From positions 1 to 23,736 of the IMG/VR virus record IMGVR_UViG_3300032267_000528: a stretch of 23,736 nt of DNA, one strand, 5' to 3'. Made by a program: the position numbers and the translations under genes. The notes under the pieces were generated by a model, which saw only the letters and a list, made by a program, of their open reading frames with translations, ran no database searches and was not told where the DNA came from. Of the stretch, positions 6,320 through 23,084 are shown piece after piece. The stretch's first letter is position 1. Each line of letters opens with the position of its first letter. This stretch comes from a virus.

Positions 6320-6416
6320 ATAGCCCATTTGTAATTGCAGCCAAATGGTGCTACCGATAAAGGGTTCATTCTCTAACCCCTGCCCCGGCTGCTGCAATCA
6401 GTCGGGGTTTTTTTTT
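6320..6416 (+). ncRNA. Candidate structured RNA or leader with kissing loops
   Basis: Three hairpins can be drawn. P1 pairs 6321-6331 with 6342-6353 (11 bp, one bulged T at 6349; core CCATTTG/CAAATGG) around loop TAATTGCAGC (6332-6341). P2 pairs GGGTT (6362-6366) with AACCC (6375-6379). P3 pairs 6383-6391 with 6399-6407 around loop CTGCAAT (6392-6398) and is followed by nine T. The whole P3 loop is the exact reverse complement of ATTGCAG (6334-6340) in the P1 loop, allowing a 7-bp kissing interaction. It could be a free small RNA of about 97 nt or an attenuator for the primase-helicase 7 bases downstream. I do not recognise a known RNA family. Confidence 0.6.
6383..6416 (+). terminator. Strong intrinsic terminator just before primase-helicase
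   Basis: CCCCGGCTG (6383-6391) pairs with CAGTCGGGG (6399-6407), 9 bp with one G-T wobble, loop CTGCAAT, then T x9 (6408-6416). The next ATG is at 6424, leaving no room for a normal promoter between. Primase-helicase expression must therefore depend on readthrough or regulated antitermination. Confidence 0.85.
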
Positions 6417-13032: not shown

Positions 13033-13448
13033 TGGGAACCAGCAAGGGCAACGGCAAGTACATCGAAACCCCTGAAAAGATGTGGGAGTACTTTGAGGCA
13101 TACCGCTCGCAGGTCAAGGCAAACCCAAGGACCAAGACGGTGTTCCCCGGCAAGGATGCTATCCCCCAGTACGAACCCTTGGAGCGTCCCCTGACCGTGG
13201 AAGGCTTTGAGAACTGGTGTGCCGATGCAGGCATCATTGAGGACCTAAGCAACTACTTTGCAAATACGAAGGGCAACTACTCCGACTATTCAACCATCTG
13301 TTCACGCATAAGGCGAGTCATCCGTCAAGACCAAATCGAAGGGGGTATGGTCGGTCAGTACAACGCAAGCATTACCCAACGGTTGAACTCTTTGGTTGAC
13401 AAACAAGAGAATCAGGTCTTTATTGAACAATGGACCGAGGATGAATGA
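13032..13448 (+). CDS. terS: Terminase small subunit (138 aa)
   Basis: DNA-recognition subunit of the packaging motor. Residues 1-50 hold a helical N-terminal part (KYIETPEKMWEYFEAYRSQV). Residues 53-85 (LTVEGFENWCADAGIIEDLS, then NYFANTKGNYSDY) are a putative DNA-binding helix-turn-helix. Residues 103-125 (GGMVGQYNASITQRLNSLVD) match the conserved segment before the C-terminus of gp3/P22-like small terminases. It ends in an ATGA overlap with the large subunit. Confidence 0.85.
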   Translation: MGTSKGNGKYIETPEKMWEYFEAYRSQVKANPRTKTVFPGKDAIPQYEPLERPLTVEGFENWCADAGIIEDLSNYFANTKGNYSDYSTICSRIRRVIRQDQIEGGMVGQYNASITQRLNSLVDKQENQVFIEQWTEDE

Positions 13449-14620
13449 AGATCATAAACACCACCGCCAAGCGGAAGATTGAATCGCTGACCCATCGTAA
13501 ACGGGTCATCCAAGGAGGGACCTCGGCCTCCAAGACCTTCAGCATCCTTTGCGTTTTAATCAAACAGGCTTGCACGAAGAAGACCGAAATCAGCATCGTC
13601 GGGGAAACCGTGCCTCACCTTCGGAGGGGTGCGATTCGGGACTTCATCAAGATAATGATCGCCAAGGGCATCTTCGTTCCGTCAAGGTGGAACAAGACCC
13701 TGCTGACCTACAACTTCGCTAACCGTAGCACCATCGAGTTTTTCTCGGCTGACCAAGAGGCAAGACTCCGAGGTGCAAGGAGGCAGGTGCTATTCATCAA
13801 CGAGGCGAACAACATCGACTTTGAATCTTACTACCAGTTGGCAATCCGTACCAGCGAGGCCATCTACATCGACTTCAACCCGACGCATGAGTTTTGGGCG
13901 CATACCGAGGTCTTGCGTGAGGACGACTCCGAACTGCTCATTCTAACCTATCAAGACAACGAGGCCCTGCCTGATACCATCAAGAGGGATATCGAACTAA
14001 ACCGCACCAAAGCCGAAACGAGTGCCTACTGGGCTAACTGGTGGAAGGTCTACGGCCTCGGGCAGGTCGGGACGCTACAGGGTGCGATATACGAGGACTT
14101 CGAGGTCGTGGAGGGTATCGATGTCAGCCGAGCCAAATTCGTCGCTTTAGGGCTTGACTGGGGCTTTAGCAACGACCCTACGGCCTTGGTCGCTATATAC
14201 CGTCAAGGGGACTGCTTGCTGATTCAGGAACTGCTCTACTCCACGGGCCTGACCAACCAAGACATCGCAGACAAACTGCGGTCCTTGGGGATTACCCGGG
14301 CTTGGGAGATAGTTGCGGATTCAGCAGAACCCAAGAGCATCGAAGAAATCTATCGCCTCGGTTTCAACATCAAGCCTGCTGAGAAAGGTCCCGATTCGGT
14401 CAGGAACGGGATAGACATCTTGAAACGATTCAAGTTGCAGGTGACCAAGGATAGCACAAACCTCATCAAAGAACTGCGGTCCTACACTTGGGCAACCGAC
14501 AAGGAAGGTAAGAACACGGGGGTCCCCATTGATTCCTTCAACCACGCCTGCGATGCTATGCGCTATGTGGCACTCAACAAGTTAAGGGTAAGCAACTCAG
14601 GGAAGTATGTTGTGGTGTAA
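13445..14620 (+). CDS. terL: Terminase large subunit (391 aa)
   Basis: Packaging ATPase and nuclease. The ATPase domain has the Walker A variant QGGTSASKT (23-31), a form often seen in phage large terminases, and Walker B VLFINEA (115-121, catalytic E120). The C-terminal RNase H-like nuclease has acidic residues at D238 (GLDWG), D292 (VADSAEP) and D370 (NHACDAMRY). The length is at the short end but both domains are complete. The last codons overlap the next promoter-like box (TAACTTTG 14618-14625). Confidence 0.95.
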   Translation: MKIINTTAKRKIESLTHRKRVIQGGTSASKTFSILCVLIKQACTKKTEISIVGETVPHLRRGAIRDFIKIMIAKGIFVPSRWNKTLLTYNFANRSTIEFFSADQEARLRGARRQVLFINEANNIDFESYYQLAIRTSEAIYIDFNPTHEFWAHTEVLREDDSELLILTYQDNEALPDTIKRDIELNRTKAETSAYWANWWKVYGLGQVGTLQGAIYEDFEVVEGIDVSRAKFVALGLDWGFSNDPTALVAIYRQGDCLLIQELLYSTGLTNQDIADKLRSLGITRAWEIVADSAEPKSIEEIYRLGFNIKPAEKGPDSVRNGIDILKRFKLQVTKDSTNLIKELRSYTWATDKEGKNTGVPIDSFNHACDAMRYVALNKLRVSNSGKYVVV

Positions 14621-14629: not shown

Positions 14630-14731
14630 ATGAACACCGAACGCATCATTGACCTGCTCATCGAAATCGGCAAGACGCTTGCAGCCATTTTCTTTATCCT
14701 GACCCTTCTAACCCTGCTTTGGACCTTATGA
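14630..14731 (+). CDS. Small membrane peptide (33 aa)
   Basis: MNTERIIDLLIEIGKTLAAI followed by a hydrophobic end (FFILTLLTLLWTL). One membrane helix covers about residues 17-33. The ATG sits 4 bases after a promoter-like box, and the stop overlaps the next start (ATGA), so translation is plausible. It might anchor the following enzymes at the membrane, but this is speculation. Confidence 0.5.
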   Translation: MNTERIIDLLIEIGKTLAAIFFILTLLTLLWTL

Positions 14732-15381
14732 AAGTCATCCACTACTACCACGTTTATTGCGGGGGGAATTGGCAGTTAATCCTGAATCAACACATGATGG
14801 CCGTGTGCAATTACGGCCTCATCAACGTCTTGGACGAAATCCGTGTTGGCATTGTCGGTCCACCCGAACAACGCAAGGCGGTCAAGGAGGTGCTGGAAGG
14901 TTCGATGGTTGCCCCGAAGATTAAAATAGTGGTAACCCGAACCAACGCTTGGGAGCAGGCTACGCTTACTGAAATGTACAAGGCAAGCCAAGAAGAGGAA
15001 GCCGTGTACCTGTACGCCCACACGAAGGGGGCAAGCGATCCTTCATTAATAAACCAGTTGTGGAATCGCAGCATGATCTTTTTTAACGTCGTCGCATGGG
15101 AGCGGTCCCTGCAATTGCTCGAAGGGGTGGATGCGGTGGGATGCCATTGGATTACCAAGGAGCAGTTCCCTCACATGGCGGACCAAAACAACCCCGAAGG
15201 CTACCCCTACTTTGGTGGAACCTATTGGTGGGCCAAGTCGTCCCACATCAAGGAACTGGGTGAGCCGGTACGGGACCACCGCTGGCAGGCCGAACATTGG
15301 ATTGGAAAGAAACCCGACACAAAGGTCCACGACACGAACCCCGGATGGCCGGGTCCCGAAAAATTTGTAATCACATTTTAA
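14728..15381 (+). CDS. Glycosyltransferase-like protein with HTKG motif (217 aa)
   Basis: Starts MKVIHYYHVYCGGNWQLILN; the ATG at 14728 overlaps the previous stop (ATGA). VYLYAHTKGASDP (about residues 94-106), WITKEQFPHMA and YFGGTYWWAKSSHI (about 156-170) match a group of nucleotide-sugar glycosyltransferase-like proteins found in capsule loci and phages, in which H(T/S)KG and GGT.WWA are conserved. A canonical DxD is not obvious. The sugar donor and acceptor are unknown. It heads a three-enzyme group that may decorate virion proteins or host surface glycans. Confidence 0.7.
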   Translation: MKVIHYYHVYCGGNWQLILNQHMMAVCNYGLINVLDEIRVGIVGPPEQRKAVKEVLEGSMVAPKIKIVVTRTNAWEQATLTEMYKASQEEEAVYLYAHTKGASDPSLINQLWNRSMIFFNVVAWERSLQLLEGVDAVGCHWITKEQFPHMADQNNPEGYPYFGGTYWWAKSSHIKELGEPVRDHRWQAEHWIGKKPDTKVHDTNPGWPGPEKFVITF

Positions 15382-15383
15382 CC

Positions 15384-15968
15384 ATGAAAGACAAAGAACT
15401 GATTGCCATCCTTGACGAGTTAGACCTCAATGGTGCTGACTGGCAGGGAGGAACCGACAAGGCCAACGGCCACAACTACACAAGCACCTATGCCAAGTAC
15501 TTGGCTGAAATGCGAGCCGACCACATAAACTTCGTGGAGATAGGGGTCTGGCACGGAGGGTCTATGGCTATGTGGTGCAAGTATCTGCCCAAGGCCAAGT
15601 TTCTTTTTTATGACATTGCCAACCAAGTCAAGCCAAAGGCTGACAAGCACATTGACTGGACTCGTTCAAGGCTCCACATCGCATCGGCCTACACACCCGA
15701 ATCCGTGCAAGTCGCAAGGGACTATTTTAAGAACGGCATTGACTTCCTGCTGGACGACGGCCCACACACCTTAGACTCCATGTTGCAGGTCGTCAGCCTG
15801 TATGCACCGTTGATGAATCAAGGAGGTGTCTTAATGATTGAGGACGTGCAGAGCAAAGACTGGTTCGTGAATTTGTCAGCCGTAGCACCGAGCAACTCAA
15901 TCTTTGAGGCCATAGACCTTAGTGAATCGGGCCGATACGACGACCTCATTGCCGTTTACAAGTTCTAA
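15384..15968 (+). CDS. Class I SAM-dependent methyltransferase (194 aa)
   Basis: The start at 15384 is 2 bases after the previous stop; the longer frame from 15297 overlaps coding sequence. SAM-binding motif I is FVEIGVWHGGSMAMWCKYLP (about residues 50-69), followed by the acidic end of strand 2 (FLFYDI), motif IV IDFLLDDGPHTLDSML (about 118-133) and LMNQGGVLMIEDVQ (about 142-155). The DDGPH....L pattern matches the CmcI/Methyltransf_24 group, which methylates sugars or small molecules. Flanking glycosyltransferases suggest a sugar O-methyltransferase. Confidence 0.8.
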   Translation: MKDKELIAILDELDLNGADWQGGTDKANGHNYTSTYAKYLAEMRADHINFVEIGVWHGGSMAMWCKYLPKAKFLFYDIANQVKPKADKHIDWTRSRLHIASAYTPESVQVARDYFKNGIDFLLDDGPHTLDSMLQVVSLYAPLMNQGGVLMIEDVQSKDWFVNLSAVAPSNSIFEAIDLSESGRYDDLIAVYKF

Positions 15969-15970
15969 CT

Positions 15971-16621
15971 ATGGGGATCCCCGTCATCATTAACAACCGC
16001 AACCTGCTGACGTGGCCCAAAGCGATGGTCAGGGACTTGAGCAAGTGGGAGGGGATTGGGGACATCTACATCGTTGACAACGGTTCAACCTACGAGCCAT
16101 TGCTGGAGTGGTACGCCACCAACCCCTGCAAGGTCGTGATGCTTGACGAAAACTTGGGCCATCAAGCCCCATGGACTTCGGGCTTGGTGCAACAACTGGG
16201 AGAGCCATTCTATGCGGTTACAGACCCGGACCTTGACCTTTACAAGACCAGCAAGCGGACGATTCCTATGTGCTTGGAGTGGCTGCAACAATTCCCCCAA
16301 GCAGGCAAGGTCGGCCTGTCGCTCCGATGGGATGACGTGCCTCCAAGGTCGTCGTACTACACCCACGTTAACAACTACGAAGCGACCCGTCAGCGTAACT
16401 CAAGGGTCATCATGGCAGCAAGAGTTGACGTGCCTATTGATACAACTTTTGCCGTTTACAATCGTCAGGAGTACTTCATTGGTGGGGTTTCATTGCTTGA
16501 GTCAGCGAGGCACATTCCTTGGTATTACTCGGAGAAAGAACGCAAGGCTGATAAGGAGTTCAGTCAGTACCTTGCATCAGCATCGTCGGCATCGTCTTAC
16601 AAAACCTTCTTGAAACTATGA
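15971..16621 (+). CDS. GT-A family glycosyltransferase (216 aa)
   Basis: Residues 1-42 (MGIPVIINNRNLLTWPKAMV, then DIYIVDNGSTYEPLLEWY) form the nucleotide-binding half of a GT2-like fold. ENLGHQAPW (about 59-67) and VTDPDLDLY (about 83-91) correspond to the acceptor-side loop and the DxD metal motif. The C-terminal SRVIMAARVDVPIDTTFAVY lies where other phage and capsule enzymes bind acceptor. The gene is 2 bases after the methyltransferase and overlaps the tail chaperone start (ATGA). Confidence 0.8.
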   Translation: MGIPVIINNRNLLTWPKAMVRDLSKWEGIGDIYIVDNGSTYEPLLEWYATNPCKVVMLDENLGHQAPWTSGLVQQLGEPFYAVTDPDLDLYKTSKRTIPMCLEWLQQFPQAGKVGLSLRWDDVPPRSSYYTHVNNYEATRQRNSRVIMAARVDVPIDTTFAVYNRQEYFIGGVSLLESARHIPWYYSEKERKADKEFSQYLASASSASSYKTFLKL

Positions 16622-17187
16622 AACTCCAAGACCTCACCATTGACCAGTTCCAGCGTATTGGAGCCATTGAGTTCAGTAGCGTTCTCGGGGACTACGACAA
16701 GCGTGCAGGGGTCGTCGCAATCGTTGAGGGGGTGGACATATCAATCGTGAGAGAAATGCCCGCCAAGAGCGTCCTAAAGCGTTACAAGGCCATTATCAGC
16801 GAGTGGAACGCATTGCCTGCATTGGGCTACAAGCGGAAGTTCAAAGCAGGGGGCAAGTGGTGGATTCCAACGGTGTTCACAGATGAACTAACCGCTGGGC
16901 AGTTGATTGAACTCATGGACGCAAACACGACGGACGAGAAGCAACTGCTCCAAAACCTCCACCGCATTATGGCTACTCTATGCCGGGATGGCGGTCTATT
17001 CGGATTCTTCCCCAAGAAATACGACGGGGCTGCCCATGCGGAGCGAGCCGAACTGATGAAGAAACACGCTAAAGTCGGGGACGTTTGGGGGGTTGTCAGT
17101 TTTTTTTTGCTAAGTTCAGAATCCTACTTGAAAGTTTTGAGCGACTATTCCAAGCACCTGATGAAGACGGCCGAGGGACTGACGTAA
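16618..17187 (+). CDS. Putative tail assembly chaperone, gpG-like (189 aa)
   Basis: Position upstream of tail genes and tape measure, and a T9 run near the 3' end, match the G/GT tail chaperone pair of siphoviruses that load the tape measure protein. Residues 1-80 (MKLQDLTIDQFQRIGAIEFS...) and 85-135 (VFTDELTAGQLIELMDANTT, LLQNLHRIMATLCRD) are helical, followed by FFPKKYDGAAHAERAELMKK and a hydrophobic end. I recall proteins of this layout in Bacteroidota phages annotated as tail chaperone-like. The zero-frame product ends at 17187; see the extension 17106-17363. Confidence 0.6.
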   Translation: MKLQDLTIDQFQRIGAIEFSSVLGDYDKRAGVVAIVEGVDISIVREMPAKSVLKRYKAIISEWNALPALGYKRKFKAGGKWWIPTVFTDELTAGQLIELMDANTTDEKQLLQNLHRIMATLCRDGGLFGFFPKKYDGAAHAERAELMKKHAKVGDVWGVVSFFLLSSESYLKVLSDYSKHLMKTAEGLT

Positions 17188-17363
17188 GCCCGCTTGCCGG
17201 GTACGGTTGGCTGATGGTCGTCTGGCGGATGGCAAACAAGGACGTTCTCAAGTTCGATGCCATTTTCGCGATGAAGGCGGTGGAGTTTCTCAATTATGCG
17301 CTCCTGATTCACGATATTTTAGAGGCAGAACGAATGGAAGCGGAGCGAGCGAGGCGCAGATAG
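17106..17363 (+). CDS. Tail chaperone -1 frameshift extension (GT-like part)
   Basis: The frame one base behind 16618-17187 is open from 17085 to TAG 17361-17363, with no convincing start. At 17100-17108 there are nine T, read in zero frame as agT TTT TTT TTg, offering slippery heptamers T TTT TTT and T TTT TTG. A -1 slip joins the frames into a 248-residue product with an added acidic/basic helical tail (LAGYGWLMVVWRMANKDVLK, then HDILEAERMEAERARRR). This mirrors lambda gpG/gpGT. An independent start at ATG 17214 (49 aa) is possible. Confidence 0.6.
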   Translation, partial: FAKFRILLESFERLFQAPDEDGRGTDVSPLAGYGWLMVVWRMANKDVLKFDAIFAMKAVEFLNYALLIHDILEAERMEAERARRR

Positions 17364-17394: not shown

Positions 17395-17994
17395 ATGGAG
17401 TTCAACGTCTTTGTAGGAGGGTCAGGCAAGAAACTGACCGATATCCAAAGGGAAGCCCTTGCTGACTTTGGTGTGGCCCTCGAAGACGGGGCCATTGAAA
17501 ACAAGTCCCACGCCTTGGTAGTCAAGTGGCTTGAAGGAGTGGTCCGCCTTGCGAAAGAGAACCTTGCCAAGTCGAACGCCATTGCAAGCAACGCCCTTTC
17601 GCAGTCCATAACCGTAACCCCTATATCCCTTAACGACCAGTCCTTTGTCGTCGCTATTGAGGCAGCGGATTATTGGAAGTTCGTGGACCTCGGTGTCAAG
17701 GGCGCAAACTCAAGCAAGCGTGCGCCTAACTCGCCGTTTCAATACCGGGACAAGCGTCCACCTATCCGCCCCATTCAGGAGTGGATTGCGTTCAAGGGGA
17801 TTCCGTTGGAAGGCCGGGACAAGAAGGCAGCAAACAGATCCTTTGCGATCAACATCGCCAACAAGATTCGGAGGGAAGGTCTGCGAGCGACCAACTTTAT
17901 GAGCAATGCAGTAAGCCCCGAAATGATAGAGGTCCTGACCGAGAACATCGCAGAGGTCCTTGGCAAATCCATAAGCGTAGCAACCACAAGATAA
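17395..17994 (+). CDS. Putative tail completion protein, HK97-gp10-like (199 aa)
   Basis: Probable small virion protein at the head-tail or tail-end interface. Residues 85-135 show AADYWKFVDLGVKGANSSKR then PFQYRDKRPPIRPIQEWIAF. That is the Y..FVD.GV.G......P..F.......P....I..W pattern I associate with gp10-like tail completion proteins. The C-terminal helix (SFAINIANKIRREGLRATNF) is also typical. The N-terminal 60 residues are helical. It is separated from the next gene by 1 base. Confidence 0.65.
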   Translation: MEFNVFVGGSGKKLTDIQREALADFGVALEDGAIENKSHALVVKWLEGVVRLAKENLAKSNAIASNALSQSITVTPISLNDQSFVVAIEAADYWKFVDLGVKGANSSKRAPNSPFQYRDKRPPIRPIQEWIAFKGIPLEGRDKKAANRSFAINIANKIRREGLRATNFMSNAVSPEMIEVLTENIAEVLGKSISVATTR

Positions 17995-19189: not shown

Positions 19190-21423
19190 GCGTTACGCTA
19201 ATTGCCTACCCTCTCAACGATTCCGATGTTGAGGTCCCCTATGTAGTTGATACAATGGGTGGCACAGACATAGCCATCACGTTCAGCATCGATGACATAA
19301 ACGACATCACAAAGCGTAGAGGGTCGTTCTCCAAGACGATAGAGTTGCCTAATACGACAACCAACGCAAGCCTGTTCAAGTTTGCCTACAACGTGCAGTC
19401 CTTCGTTGGTGGATTCCAACCCAACAAGAAGATTCGTGCTGCCATGTGGGAGGATGGGGTCCAAGTGTTTAGCGGTGCGATGCAGTTGTTGTCCATGTCC
19501 AAGACCAAGGGCGAAGTAACTTACGAAGTCGGGATGTTCAGCGAGGACGTGAGCCTATTTCAAGACATCCAAAACAACCTGCTCGTCAACACGGCTGGCG
19601 TTACCGGGATGAATCACACCTTTACATCGGCCCATGTTTCTGCGACTTGGACCGCATCGGGTGCAAGCGGTTACGTTTACGGCTTGGTGGATTCCTATGG
19701 AGCCACGGATGTAATTACACAAGGGTGGTTTGCTATCCCTTACTGGAAGATGGGGCCGTCCATTTACGTCAAGAAGATGGTGGACTTGATATTCGCACAG
19801 GCAGGCTATCGATATTCATCCAACTTCTTTAACTCGACCCTATTCAAGAAACTGGTCATTCCTTACTCTGCCGGGACGATTCCTGTCAACCTTTCGGGGT
19901 CTAACATCTTTGCGCAGTCAACTGGAAGTGTGACTTTTGCAGGAAGTTCAAACGCAACCGCTCTATTCCCCAAAGACACTCCTGCACCTTACTTTGACAA
20001 TGGAGGCTATTGGGTCGCATCGTCCAGCACCTTCGTTGCTCCGAATGTTCCAACCCGTTGGAATGTTGATGTGATCTTAACTGTTAGTGGCGCAACCGCT
20101 GGAAGATTTGCAGCAAATATGTCCATCCGAAACTTGACCGACTCAACGGACAACATGGTTCGCACGGGAATAAACTTTACGACCAACACTCAATTCTCGG
20201 TCAGTTTTCAAAATGTAACGATACCAGCCAACACGACCGCAAACATTGGGTTTGCAGTCACCGCAGGGCTTAACTTTTTTACCAACACTTACTCCATCCT
20301 TTCGGGGGCAACCGTTCTATGGACTTGCATTGATAATCCAGCAAGCATCGGGGTCGTTGATATGCGGACCGCTCTGCCTGCTGACGTGAAGCAGAGCGAC
20401 CTACTCGTTGACCTGCAAAAGATGTTCAACCTTTACTTCATGCCCGATGCACAGGACCCCAAACTCCTATACATCGAGCCATTCAAGGACTTCTACTCAA
20501 GCGATGTGGTTGACTGGACGCAGAAGGTGGATGAGAACCAAGAGCAAGTGCTGACCAATGGCGACCCGAACCAATACAAGTCGCTTTTGTTTAAATACAA
20601 GGACATGGGCGATTACTTGTCCAAGACCTACAAGTCAAGCAATCCGCTTGCGAAGGAAGGCTACGGAGGCCGTCAGTTCTTGACGCAAAACTTCTACGGC
20701 AAGTCCGAGTTCGTCTGCGAAACAATGGCCGGGACGCTGATACCGGGTTCGTTCACGACCGATAAGGTCATCGGCAGGGCTTGGGACTTGGAAGGCGGCA
20801 CGGCAAGCGGTACGGTCAAGCAGTTGAACACGGGATACCGACTAGCGCAGTACAACTCAATCGCTCAAGGCACAACGTCTTGGTTCTATCAAACAGGCGT
20901 GAGCGGTTCGTTTGCTACGGGCGAATACGTCGCCAACGTCCCCTTCGTGAGCCACATTGACAACCCCTATGCACCGACCGAGGACCTTGCCTTTGGTATT
21001 CCGAGGCAGGTGTTCTACAATGCGGTCAACGCAAGCGGGTCGCCAATCACCTACACGAACAACAACCTTTACAACAAGTATTGGCTCAATTACATCACCG
21101 AAACGACCTCCAAGGAGGCCTTGCAGTTGGAGTTGACGGTAGTCTTGAACTGCGTGGACATCTACCAACTCGACTTCCGAAAGCCGATTTATTACAACGG
21201 CATCCGCTGGCGTTTGCTTGAGATTCGGGACTATACGGTAGGCGAAGCAAAGCCTTGCCGGGTAACGCTGCGCAGAATTCTGAACCTCGCAGAGTTCGTG
21301 CCTGTAACGAGCGTTCCAATAACGAGCGACCCTGCTGGATTACCGAACGGACCTATCGACCCCGACCCGGAAGACCCTGACTACGAACCACCCATCAACC
21401 CTGAATTACCAACCCCCGGATAA
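19186..21423 (+). CDS. Large tail/baseplate protein (745 aa)
   Basis: Residues 1-130 contain VPYVVDTMGGTDIAITFSID, RRGSFSKTIELPNTTTNASL and KKIRAAMWEDGVQVFSGAMQ, reminiscent of tail or baseplate hub N-terminal domains. The middle (about 200-400) is a beta-rich, Ser/Thr/Asn-rich adhesin-like region. About 405-480 contains LLVDLQKMFNLYFMPDAQDP and LLYIEPFKDFYSSDVVDWTQ, which resembles hub segments. The C-terminus is Pro/Asp-rich (DPDPEDPDYEPPINPELPTP). Its likely function is in the tail tip. It ends in a TAATG overlap with the tape measure gene. Confidence 0.6.
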   Translation: MSVTLIAYPLNDSDVEVPYVVDTMGGTDIAITFSIDDINDITKRRGSFSKTIELPNTTTNASLFKFAYNVQSFVGGFQPNKKIRAAMWEDGVQVFSGAMQLLSMSKTKGEVTYEVGMFSEDVSLFQDIQNNLLVNTAGVTGMNHTFTSAHVSATWTASGASGYVYGLVDSYGATDVITQGWFAIPYWKMGPSIYVKKMVDLIFAQAGYRYSSNFFNSTLFKKLVIPYSAGTIPVNLSGSNIFAQSTGSVTFAGSSNATALFPKDTPAPYFDNGGYWVASSSTFVAPNVPTRWNVDVILTVSGATAGRFAANMSIRNLTDSTDNMVRTGINFTTNTQFSVSFQNVTIPANTTANIGFAVTAGLNFFTNTYSILSGATVLWTCIDNPASIGVVDMRTALPADVKQSDLLVDLQKMFNLYFMPDAQDPKLLYIEPFKDFYSSDVVDWTQKVDENQEQVLTNGDPNQYKSLLFKYKDMGDYLSKTYKSSNPLAKEGYGGRQFLTQNFYGKSEFVCETMAGTLIPGSFTTDKVIGRAWDLEGGTASGTVKQLNTGYRLAQYNSIAQGTTSWFYQTGVSGSFATGEYVANVPFVSHIDNPYAPTEDLAFGIPRQVFYNAVNASGSPITYTNNNLYNKYWLNYITETTSKEALQLELTVVLNCVDIYQLDFRKPIYYNGIRWRLLEIRDYTVGEAKPCRVTLRRILNLAEFVPVTSVPITSDPAGLPNGPIDPDPEDPDYEPPINPELPTPG

Positions 21424-23084
21424 TGGCAGTTACTAAAGAAATCGTCCTCGAAGTAGGGCTTAAAGACTCAACAGGTCAGGGAACTGAATCCGCAAAGAAA
21501 CGGCTCCGTGATTTACAACGTGCTCTCGTTGACCTTGCGGTTGCCGGGCAAGAGAACTCCGCAGAGTTTCGGAAGTTAGAGGCCGAGGCAGGTCAACTAT
21601 CCGATACTATTGGCGATGTCGGGCAACGAGTCAAAAACCTTGGCTCGGACACCAAAAACATTGAGGCATTCACGCAAGCGGTCCAAGGCGTTGCTGCTGG
21701 CTTTCAAATCGCTCAAGGTGCTGCTGCTTTGTTTGGTGAGGAAAACGAGGACATCCAAAAGGCGTTGTTGCAGGTCAATGCGACCATGGCTATTGCCAAC
21801 GGAATCCAGCAGGTAACGGTCCTCCTTCAAAAGGAATCGGCTATCTCAATGACGGCCAACAGGATTGCAACGGCCCTCTACGATAAGACGCTCAAAGGAA
21901 CCATCGTAAGCCTTCGCCTCTTTAGGACTGCATTGATTTCAACGGGTATTGGTGCAGCGATTGTTGGTGTTGGATTGCTCGTTGAAAACTGGGAAAAACT
22001 CACAAAGGTTGTCAAGGATTTCTTGGGCATTGAAACGAAAGACCTCAAGGCCGTATCCGAATTAGCGCAAAGGCAGGTTGAACTTGCAGAGGCAAGGGGC
22101 GAAAGCGAGGCAAAGGTGCAGAGCCTCTTGATGGCTGCTTATGACGCAAGGATTGCAGCAGCCGAGAAAGAAGAAGAGCGAGCGCAACTGATTCACGAGA
22201 AAGAGGTCGCAAGGCTAACATATCAAACCAAGCTGCGAACCGATGCAATAGAAAAGCAGAAGAAAGATGCAGAAGATTTGAGGGCGATGGATTCGGCAGC
22301 CAGTCAAGAAGCCGAGAATTTTCGCTTGGCTAAAATTGGAAGGATAAACGATGAACTTGCAAGGGAAAAGGCTTTGCGAGATGAAAAACTCGCAATCCTT
22401 CGGGAAGAAAAGGCACAAAGGGAAGCAGACCTCAAAAAGAGATTCACGGATTCGGACGAGTTTGCTAAAGCCTACATCCTACTGACCGAGGAAATGCGAC
22501 TTAAAGAGCAAGGCATTGCCGAGGATAGTGCAGACAAAATTTCGAAGATTGAACGCAATCGTAGGCAACAGGACTTGCAGATGGCATCAAATGCCGTTGG
22601 TGCGCTTGGTGATTTACTGACCGCTGGCTTGGGCCAATCCGAGAAAGACCAAAGAAAAGCCTTTGAGATTAACAAGAAGGCCAGCATGGGTCAAGCGCTT
22701 ATCAACACCTTCATGGCCGTAACCGCTGCCCTGACTGCTGGAGGGAACCCGATTAAACTCGCAACGGGTCGTCAATTCGTTGAAGCAGGTATTGCCCTTG
22801 CAACAGGTTTGGCGCAGGTCGCCAAAATCAGCAAGACCCAATTCCAAGGGAGTTCGGCAAGTGGAGGTGGTGGAGCGTTAACTGCTGGTGGTGGTGAAGG
22901 AGGCGAGGTTGCACCTCCTCCCATCTTCGCAAACCCACAAACGACCAACCTCGGCACGGGCGAACTCTCGACAGGCCAAGGTCAAGGTTCATCACCGATG
23001 CGAGCCTATGTGGTGGAACGAGACATCACCCAAAGCACTCGCAGAGTCAGGAGGCTTGAGGAATTTGCAACTTTAGGGGCTTAG
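21423..23084 (+). CDS. Tape measure-like protein (553 aa)
   Basis: Sets tail length and is ejected with DNA. Residues 1-70 form an N-terminal helical segment (SAKKRLRDLQRALVDLAVAG). Residues about 75-200 are alternating hydrophobic helices, including LISTGIGAAIVGVGLLVENW (about 169-188), a frequent tape-measure membrane segment. About 210-390 is a long charged coiled coil (AEKEEERAQLIHEKEVARLT; EEKAQREADLKKRFTDSDEF). About 420-470 contains ALINTFMAVTAALTAGGNPI and LATGLAQVAKISKTQFQG, also typical. The end is Gly/Gln-rich. At roughly 1.5 angstrom per residue it would specify a tail near 80 nm, which is short for a siphovirus. Confidence 0.75.
   Translation: MAVTKEIVLEVGLKDSTGQGTESAKKRLRDLQRALVDLAVAGQENSAEFRKLEAEAGQLSDTIGDVGQRVKNLGSDTKNIEAFTQAVQGVAAGFQIAQGAAALFGEENEDIQKALLQVNATMAIANGIQQVTVLLQKESAISMTANRIATALYDKTLKGTIVSLRLFRTALISTGIGAAIVGVGLLVENWEKLTKVVKDFLGIETKDLKAVSELAQRQVELAEARGESEAKVQSLLMAAYDARIAAAEKEEERAQLIHEKEVARLTYQTKLRTDAIEKQKKDAEDLRAMDSAASQEAENFRLAKIGRINDELAREKALRDEKLAILREEKAQREADLKKRFTDSDEFAKAYILLTEEMRLKEQGIAEDSADKISKIERNRRQQDLQMASNAVGALGDLLTAGLGQSEKDQRKAFEINKKASMGQALINTFMAVTAALTAGGNPIKLATGRQFVEAGIALATGLAQVAKISKTQFQGSSASGGGGALTAGGGEGGEVAPPPIFANPQTTNLGTGELSTGQGQGSSPMRAYVVERDITQSTRRVRRLEEFATLGA

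Follow-up and report, generated by a model that had tools for sequence, protein, structure and literature searches.

Tail assembly chaperones of the lambda G/GT type bind the tape measure and major tail proteins and are themselves absent from virions. Programmed -1 ribosomal frameshifting occurs on heptamers of the form X_XXY_YYZ, for which a stem-loop, a pseudoknot or a Shine-Dalgarno (SD)-like stimulator is common but not universal, and the E+E' product of phage P2 is annotated as a -1 frameshift. For lambda G/GT, the description given in PMC5009743 is that of -1 ribosomal frameshifting. Two-product tail chaperones and transcriptional slippage are each already known. Bacterial sites of the latter are characteristically runs of A or T (PMC1088944; also PMC5009743, PMC3711429), and PMC1088944 gives nine A's as the slippage site of Thermus dnaX, describes how in Shigella mxiE a nucleotide inserted at a run of U's joins two overlapping open reading frames (ORFs), counts insertion sequence (IS) elements with 9A or 9T among the transcriptional slippage genes, and names nine as the A/T run length at which counter-selection appears in many genomes. 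Here we describe a gene of a 23,736-base virus record (IMGVR_UViG_3300032267_000528; this whole stretch is referred to as the window) that is read in two frames joined at a run of nine T's (T9), and the phage gene family to which it belongs. The two-frame gene, its shift site and the coding constraint on both frames are established by sequence comparison.

An earlier note, made from the letters of the window, had placed a probable programmed -1 frameshift at this locus, and its reading of the sequence was accurate. T9 lies at 17100-17108 near the end of a frame of 189 amino acids (aa), and two in-frame heptamers span it, T_TTT_TTT and, at 17103-17109, T_TTT_TTG. The -1 frame is free of stops from 17073 to a stop ending at 17363, and computed translation through T_TTT_TTT in the -1 direction yields a fusion of 248 aa. 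The note saw no good start in the -1 frame; its sole potential start upstream of T9 is a TTG at 17085. A T9 is in itself unremarkable, with two in the window where 1.05 are expected, unlike the position and conservation of this one.

Conservation in relatives, a check that the earlier note had named, was followed in the best 80 of 422 viral-contig relatives of the 189-aa protein, which are 97-99% identical in amino acids and 87-93% in nucleotides (nt). T9 and the 189-codon frame are kept in 80/80. Two relatives, L002 and L019, end before the -1 stop, and in the other 78 the -1 frame runs open up to that stop. A pattern scan permitting a run of 7 to 11 returned T9 in all 80 examined of 119 matching stretches, on contigs that are partly those of the lineage set. 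A different T count restoring a single frame, the possible refutation that the note expected in reads, is seen in none of these lineage records. Variation was analyzed in 79 full-length sequences, 61 of them unique and the window among them. Across the unique sequences, frame-0 third positions vary at 110/150 in 16618-17069, a pattern that runs up to 17099, while 17100-17109 holds no variable site at all, and from 17188 to 17360 the variation sits at third positions of the -1 frame (48/58 varying). As such, the codon phase of substitutions in this lineage switches exactly at T9. Frame 0 is also constrained in the overlap that follows the run, since the mean variation of -1 wobble sites is 0.044 there versus 0.221 beyond it.

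From a neighbouring gene we reached two isolated phages of Nonlabens (Persicivirga), P12024S and P12024L, in which the arrangement is the same. The host of P12024S is Persicivirga sp. IMCC12024. Gene 38 of this phage (175 aa) carries T9 at L163:10676-10684 and sits, as in the window, between the terminase and a gp10-like gene, and gene 39 makes up the downstream stretch of gene 38's -1 extension (genes 38 and 39 at L163:10234-10925). These two genes, annotated apart, are two halves of one recoded gene. With gene 38 as query we obtained 63 loci of 25-99% identity, all with T9 or T10; further scans returned at least 80, 102 and at least 80 loci, and all family counts are lower bounds. The frame of the N-terminal part (N part) and the C-terminal part (C part) of each gene was then located with hidden Markov models (HMMs) of the two parts, excluding L019 and L246, which are cut by contig ends. 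In 222/222, 101/102 and 80/80 genes, or 403 of the 404 testable ones (redundant records included, with some contigs more than once), the C part lies in the -1 frame and is joined at T9 or T10, and it is for this reason that T9 is no sequencing error. The 403 shifted genes, 391 with T9 and 12 with T10, are represented by 158 at an amino-acid identity of 90% and by 100 at 70%. In the sole exception, L311 (484-1239), the halves share one continuous frame across a T10 and the alternative frame is open for 88 codons; it may be an assembly error, or a genuine fused variant, in which slippage would be required to make the short form.

Models built without the window recover its gene from among 704 six-frame ORFs of the window: the C-part HMM ranks the -1 ORF at the top with an expectation value (E) of 7.6e-6 (next 0.65), and the N-part HMM does so for the frame-0 ORF (E 0.0058, next 2). 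A change of frame near the frame-0 stop (17170-17187) was also considered, and rejected because the -1-frame constraint starts at T9 and the C-part matches of the family start at or near the run. It is strongly indicated by these comparisons that the gene has two products and that the fusion protein is among them.

So what moves the reading into the -1 frame? We lean, by a modest degree, towards slippage of RNA polymerase on T9, because the run is never shorter than nine across three codon phases, no stimulator was detected, and nine is the published threshold. Counts of flanking T's on the two sides of the heptamer (before, after) are (1,1) in 228 genes, (0,2) in 121, (2,0) in 42, (1,2) in 10 and (2,1) in 2. 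Although the run occupies all three codon phases, none of the 403 falls below nine: where the codon after the heptamer does not begin with T, the codon before it is TTT, and where the second base of the codon before is other than T, the codon after begins with TT. Shuffling the two sides among 100 representatives of less than 70% identity (20,000 shuffles, kinship ignored) gave 19.8 runs below nine on average and 12 at minimum, compared to none observed. Furthermore, 70 representatives gave no downstream RNA structure signal in nested folds, pseudoknots not being modelled, with a mean z of about 0 from +7 to +22 (60-nt windows, 17 offsets, 25 dinucleotide shuffles per window). An SD-like 4-mer precedes the site in 11 of the 70; Flavobacterium johnsoniae, of the Bacteroidia, is described as seldom using SD sequences (PMC8710568). 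What stands of the earlier note is a conserved programmed switch to the -1 frame at the T-run, in a gene that resembles a tail assembly chaperone, supported by the window-free C-part HMM, whereas the ribosomal heptamer as its mechanism is doubtful, given that seven T's would suffice for it while all 403 genes have at least nine, and that no stimulator was detected.

Under polymerase slippage, ordinary reading of the locus would give the 189-aa G-like protein, while a fraction of the messages would gain one extra U and be translated into the -1 frame, resulting in the 248-aa GT-like fusion with the T-like part as its C-terminal domain. If lambda is a guide, the short form would serve as a coat for the tape measure protein, with the T domain bringing in the major tail protein.

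A ribosomal -1 frameshift at T_TTT_TTT could instead produce the GT-like fusion, in the manner of lambda and P2, with the extra T's kept by protein constraint or as a boost to slippage. We consider this quite possible but the less likely of the two, and several observations weigh on its side and against the polymerase. Every T9 holds an in-frame T_TTT_TTT (403/403 shifted members, automatic in that any T9 has one per phase), so that ribosomal slippage is always possible, and nothing beyond the heptamer is strictly required. The documented frameshifts of lambda-type chaperones are ribosomal, as PMC5009743 describes them. Part of the run is also accounted for by coding, as FF is preceded by a hydrophobic residue and followed by L or F. 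The tree holds only 9 offset changes, and a coupled offset change in 3/3 and 2/2 independent pairs is consistent with the run-length rule, yet too few for significance. Other ORFs of the family loci (989, 840 kb) contain T7 61 times, T8 7 times and T9 or longer never, but this absence is not clearly avoidance, since T8 is already so much scarcer than T7. Against the favoured reading as a whole, the window gene is the most diverged row of the tree (end branch 6.54), and the E by which the N-part HMM finds it is only the 0.0058 given above. What speaks against the ribosome is that a run of seven or eight is never seen despite the three phases, that (2,0) lineages always have a TT on the 5' side of the heptamer although the slip site does not include it, and that the 70 representatives, within the nested folds modelled, have no structure dip downstream and few SD-like motifs.

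The remaining explanations are far less probable. In favour of the -1 ORF as a separate gene with an internal start are the annotation of P12024S gene 39 from an internal ATG and the TTG at 17085 of the window, which is in the right frame and present in 80/80 lineage members counted. However, in the interval from the last -1 stop to the run only 22/100 representatives have an ATG, GTG or TTG (ATG in 10), 24/100 are devoid of ATG anywhere in the -1 part, and matches to the family C-part HMM begin at or near the run, which makes an internal start very improbable. Phase variation, where a change of run length in the DNA toggles between short and fused protein, is slightly more improbable still. 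It would account for the fused frame of L311, and by fold both the N- and C-part models match several viral proteins that are single chains of 226-267 aa, the C part weakly; nevertheless, that fused frame is found in only 1/404, and the T10 members among the 403 are out of frame like those with T9. Least credible of all is a homopolymer sequencing or assembly error that hides a true T10 and one continuous frame. T-runs are error-prone and L311 has exactly this configuration, but T9 is found in 80/80 and again 80/80 lineage records (contigs partly shared) and in 391/403 family members, and constraint is evident in the evolution of both the frame-0 stop and the overlap.

Frame 0 stays open for a further 16 to 88 codons past the run (222-gene set, genes with a frame-0 stop in the contig), and the +1 frame closes after a median of 2 and a maximum of 10 codons (323 genes). 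In 60/70 representatives the frame-0 tail is longer than under synonymous recoding of the -1 protein (p <= 0.05), with a median of 62 codons versus 6, under a model that ignores dinucleotide bias and treats rows that are related. The window's own tail is no longer than expected from recoding (26 versus 26, p 0.63), although the variation in its lineage does show the two-frame constraint. In most members of the L183-L227 group the -1 frame reaches only 7-12 codons past the frame-0 stop, leaving both frames open over about 80 codons. Tentatively, and with somewhat less than even confidence, we propose that uncultured phages forming a very large group, which probably infect Bacteroidota, set the ratio of their two tail chaperones through polymerase slippage on a T9 that drifts through three phases without ever falling below nine, together with a selected frame-0 tail that overlaps the T domain and leaves 16 to 88 codons dual-read.

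Unlike lambda and P2, which use a fixed heptamer, the window family has a run of constant minimum length and variable phase, no stimulator that we could find, and a frame-0 tail past the shift. With Thermus dnaX, Shigella mxiE and the IS elements it shares a run of nine A or T bases, and the joining of ORFs in the window would be mxiE-like. It differs from them in being a phage assembly gene with hundreds of diverged members and putative slippage.

The identity of the protein was approached through profiles and predicted folds. Of 82 N-part family members, 81 match phrog_32199, the family of P12024S gene 38; phrog_38404 is that of P12024S gene 39 and is matched by the P12024S -1 extension. The two are catalogued as separate families of unknown function, and they are the G-like and T-like halves of the window family. 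The window N part itself has no match to phrog_32199 below 0.1, and the connection runs via the family HMMs. The 'tail protein' family phrog_166 is matched by 22/82 N-part members (best 1.2e-5) as well as by P2 gpE (4e-7); Mu gp41 is absent from the phrog_166 matches and falls in phrog_508 instead. PF10109 (Phage_TAC_7) is the commonest Pfam match, yet a weak one (4/82 members, best 0.0078). An AlphaFold2 model of the N part (16618-17106; predicted local distance difference test, pLDDT, 88.3; predicted template modelling score, pTM, 0.82) matched P12024S gene 38 (E 1.2e-5) and a protein annotated as tail assembly chaperone (E 0.043) in a viral structure library. Against solved structures, a second aligner put the HK97 chaperone 2ob9 at rank 1 of 310 (Z 4.1, next 3.2); it counts against the assignment that Foldseek places the same structure at rank 18 with E 6.6, a weak fold match. 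The C-part model had no firm fold match among the families present in the structure lists. A profile search of solved structures returned nothing credible, megablast and tblastn of window sequences against phages gave no useful match, and genome-contig scans with the -1 part and with a 745-aa protein found no relative.

These links, weak one by one, combine with the two reading frames of the gene and its location close to tail genes to make a G/GT-type chaperone the best reading. On this support, weak to moderate in sum, the gene most probably encodes a lambda-G/GT-type tail assembly chaperone, resembling lambda G/GT and P2 E/E+E' in its location in the tail-gene region and in the profile link to P2 gpE through phrog_166. 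The 'tail assembly chaperone' of Flavobacterium phage FPSV-S2 was rejected as a counterpart, being an unsplit 250-aa protein of a different PHROG. Flavobacterium phage 6H has a fold-related 191-aa gene (L495:10352-10927) that lacks a T9 near its end; it ends near an in-frame T_TTT_TTC with other frames open downstream, and may reach a T-like domain another way.

In the literature searched, mostly without subscription papers, the combination of slippage with a tail chaperone, the sliding T9 rule and the family itself seem not to have been described; no report of transcriptional slippage for a phage tail assembly chaperone was found by title or abstract opening. Two orphan families of phage proteins gain a candidate function from these findings, that of the two parts of a single recoded gene, and the annotation of both is corrected across a large set of uncultured phages. 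If the polymerase does slip, the ratio of short to long chaperone would be fixed at transcription here and at translation in lambda. Such alternatives between transcription and translation are already known for dnaX, and would here be found in a virus assembly gene.

The surroundings of the gene are listed in Table 1. The earlier note had placed it before tail genes and the tape measure; tail-like genes do follow, but the tape-measure-like gene comes fourth after it rather than next, unlike the situation in lambda. By tblastn, the product of the next gene matches gene 42 of Nonlabens phage P12024S (E 9e-8) and an annotated HK97 gp10-like protein (E 0.01). The relation to Nonlabens phages and the likeness of the terminase to those of Flavobacterium phages point to a host among the Bacteroidota.

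Table 1. Features of the two-frame gene and its neighbours in the window
Feature	Position	Strand	Basis or remark
Terminase large subunit	13445-14620	+	Profile match; 49% identity to Flavobacterium phage terminases
G-like frame-0 product, 189 aa	16618-17187	+	Putative N-terminal chaperone domain (up to 17106) and 26-codon tail; length 189 aa in 80/80 relatives
T9 slippage run (putative)	17100-17108	+	Exact in sequence; invariant in 80/80 window-lineage loci
Heptamer T_TTT_TTT, in frame	17100-17106	+	Slip site if the shift is ribosomal; read from sequence
T-like domain (putative), -1-frame extension, 85 codons and stop	17106-17363	+	Joined to 16618-17106 would give the 248-aa GT-like fusion
Overlap coded in both frames	17110-17187	+	Variation low at all three phases
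HK97 gp10-like tail-completion candidate, next gene	17395-17994	+	phrog_29822 (unknown function), E 1.6e-10
Tape-measure-like gene	21423-23084	+	Tape-measure PHROGs, E 5.8e-9 and 3.5e-7

Between the terminase and the chaperone gene (14719-16621) lie three genes unusual in a tail module: one for a methyltransferase that is Methyltransf_24/CmcI-like (Pfam 4.3e-10), one whose product is weakly glycosyltransferase-2-like (0.049), and one unknown. The other T9 of the window, at 6408-6416, is located just 5' of the ATG of a primase/helicase gene (6424), where a role in a promoter or terminator is possible.
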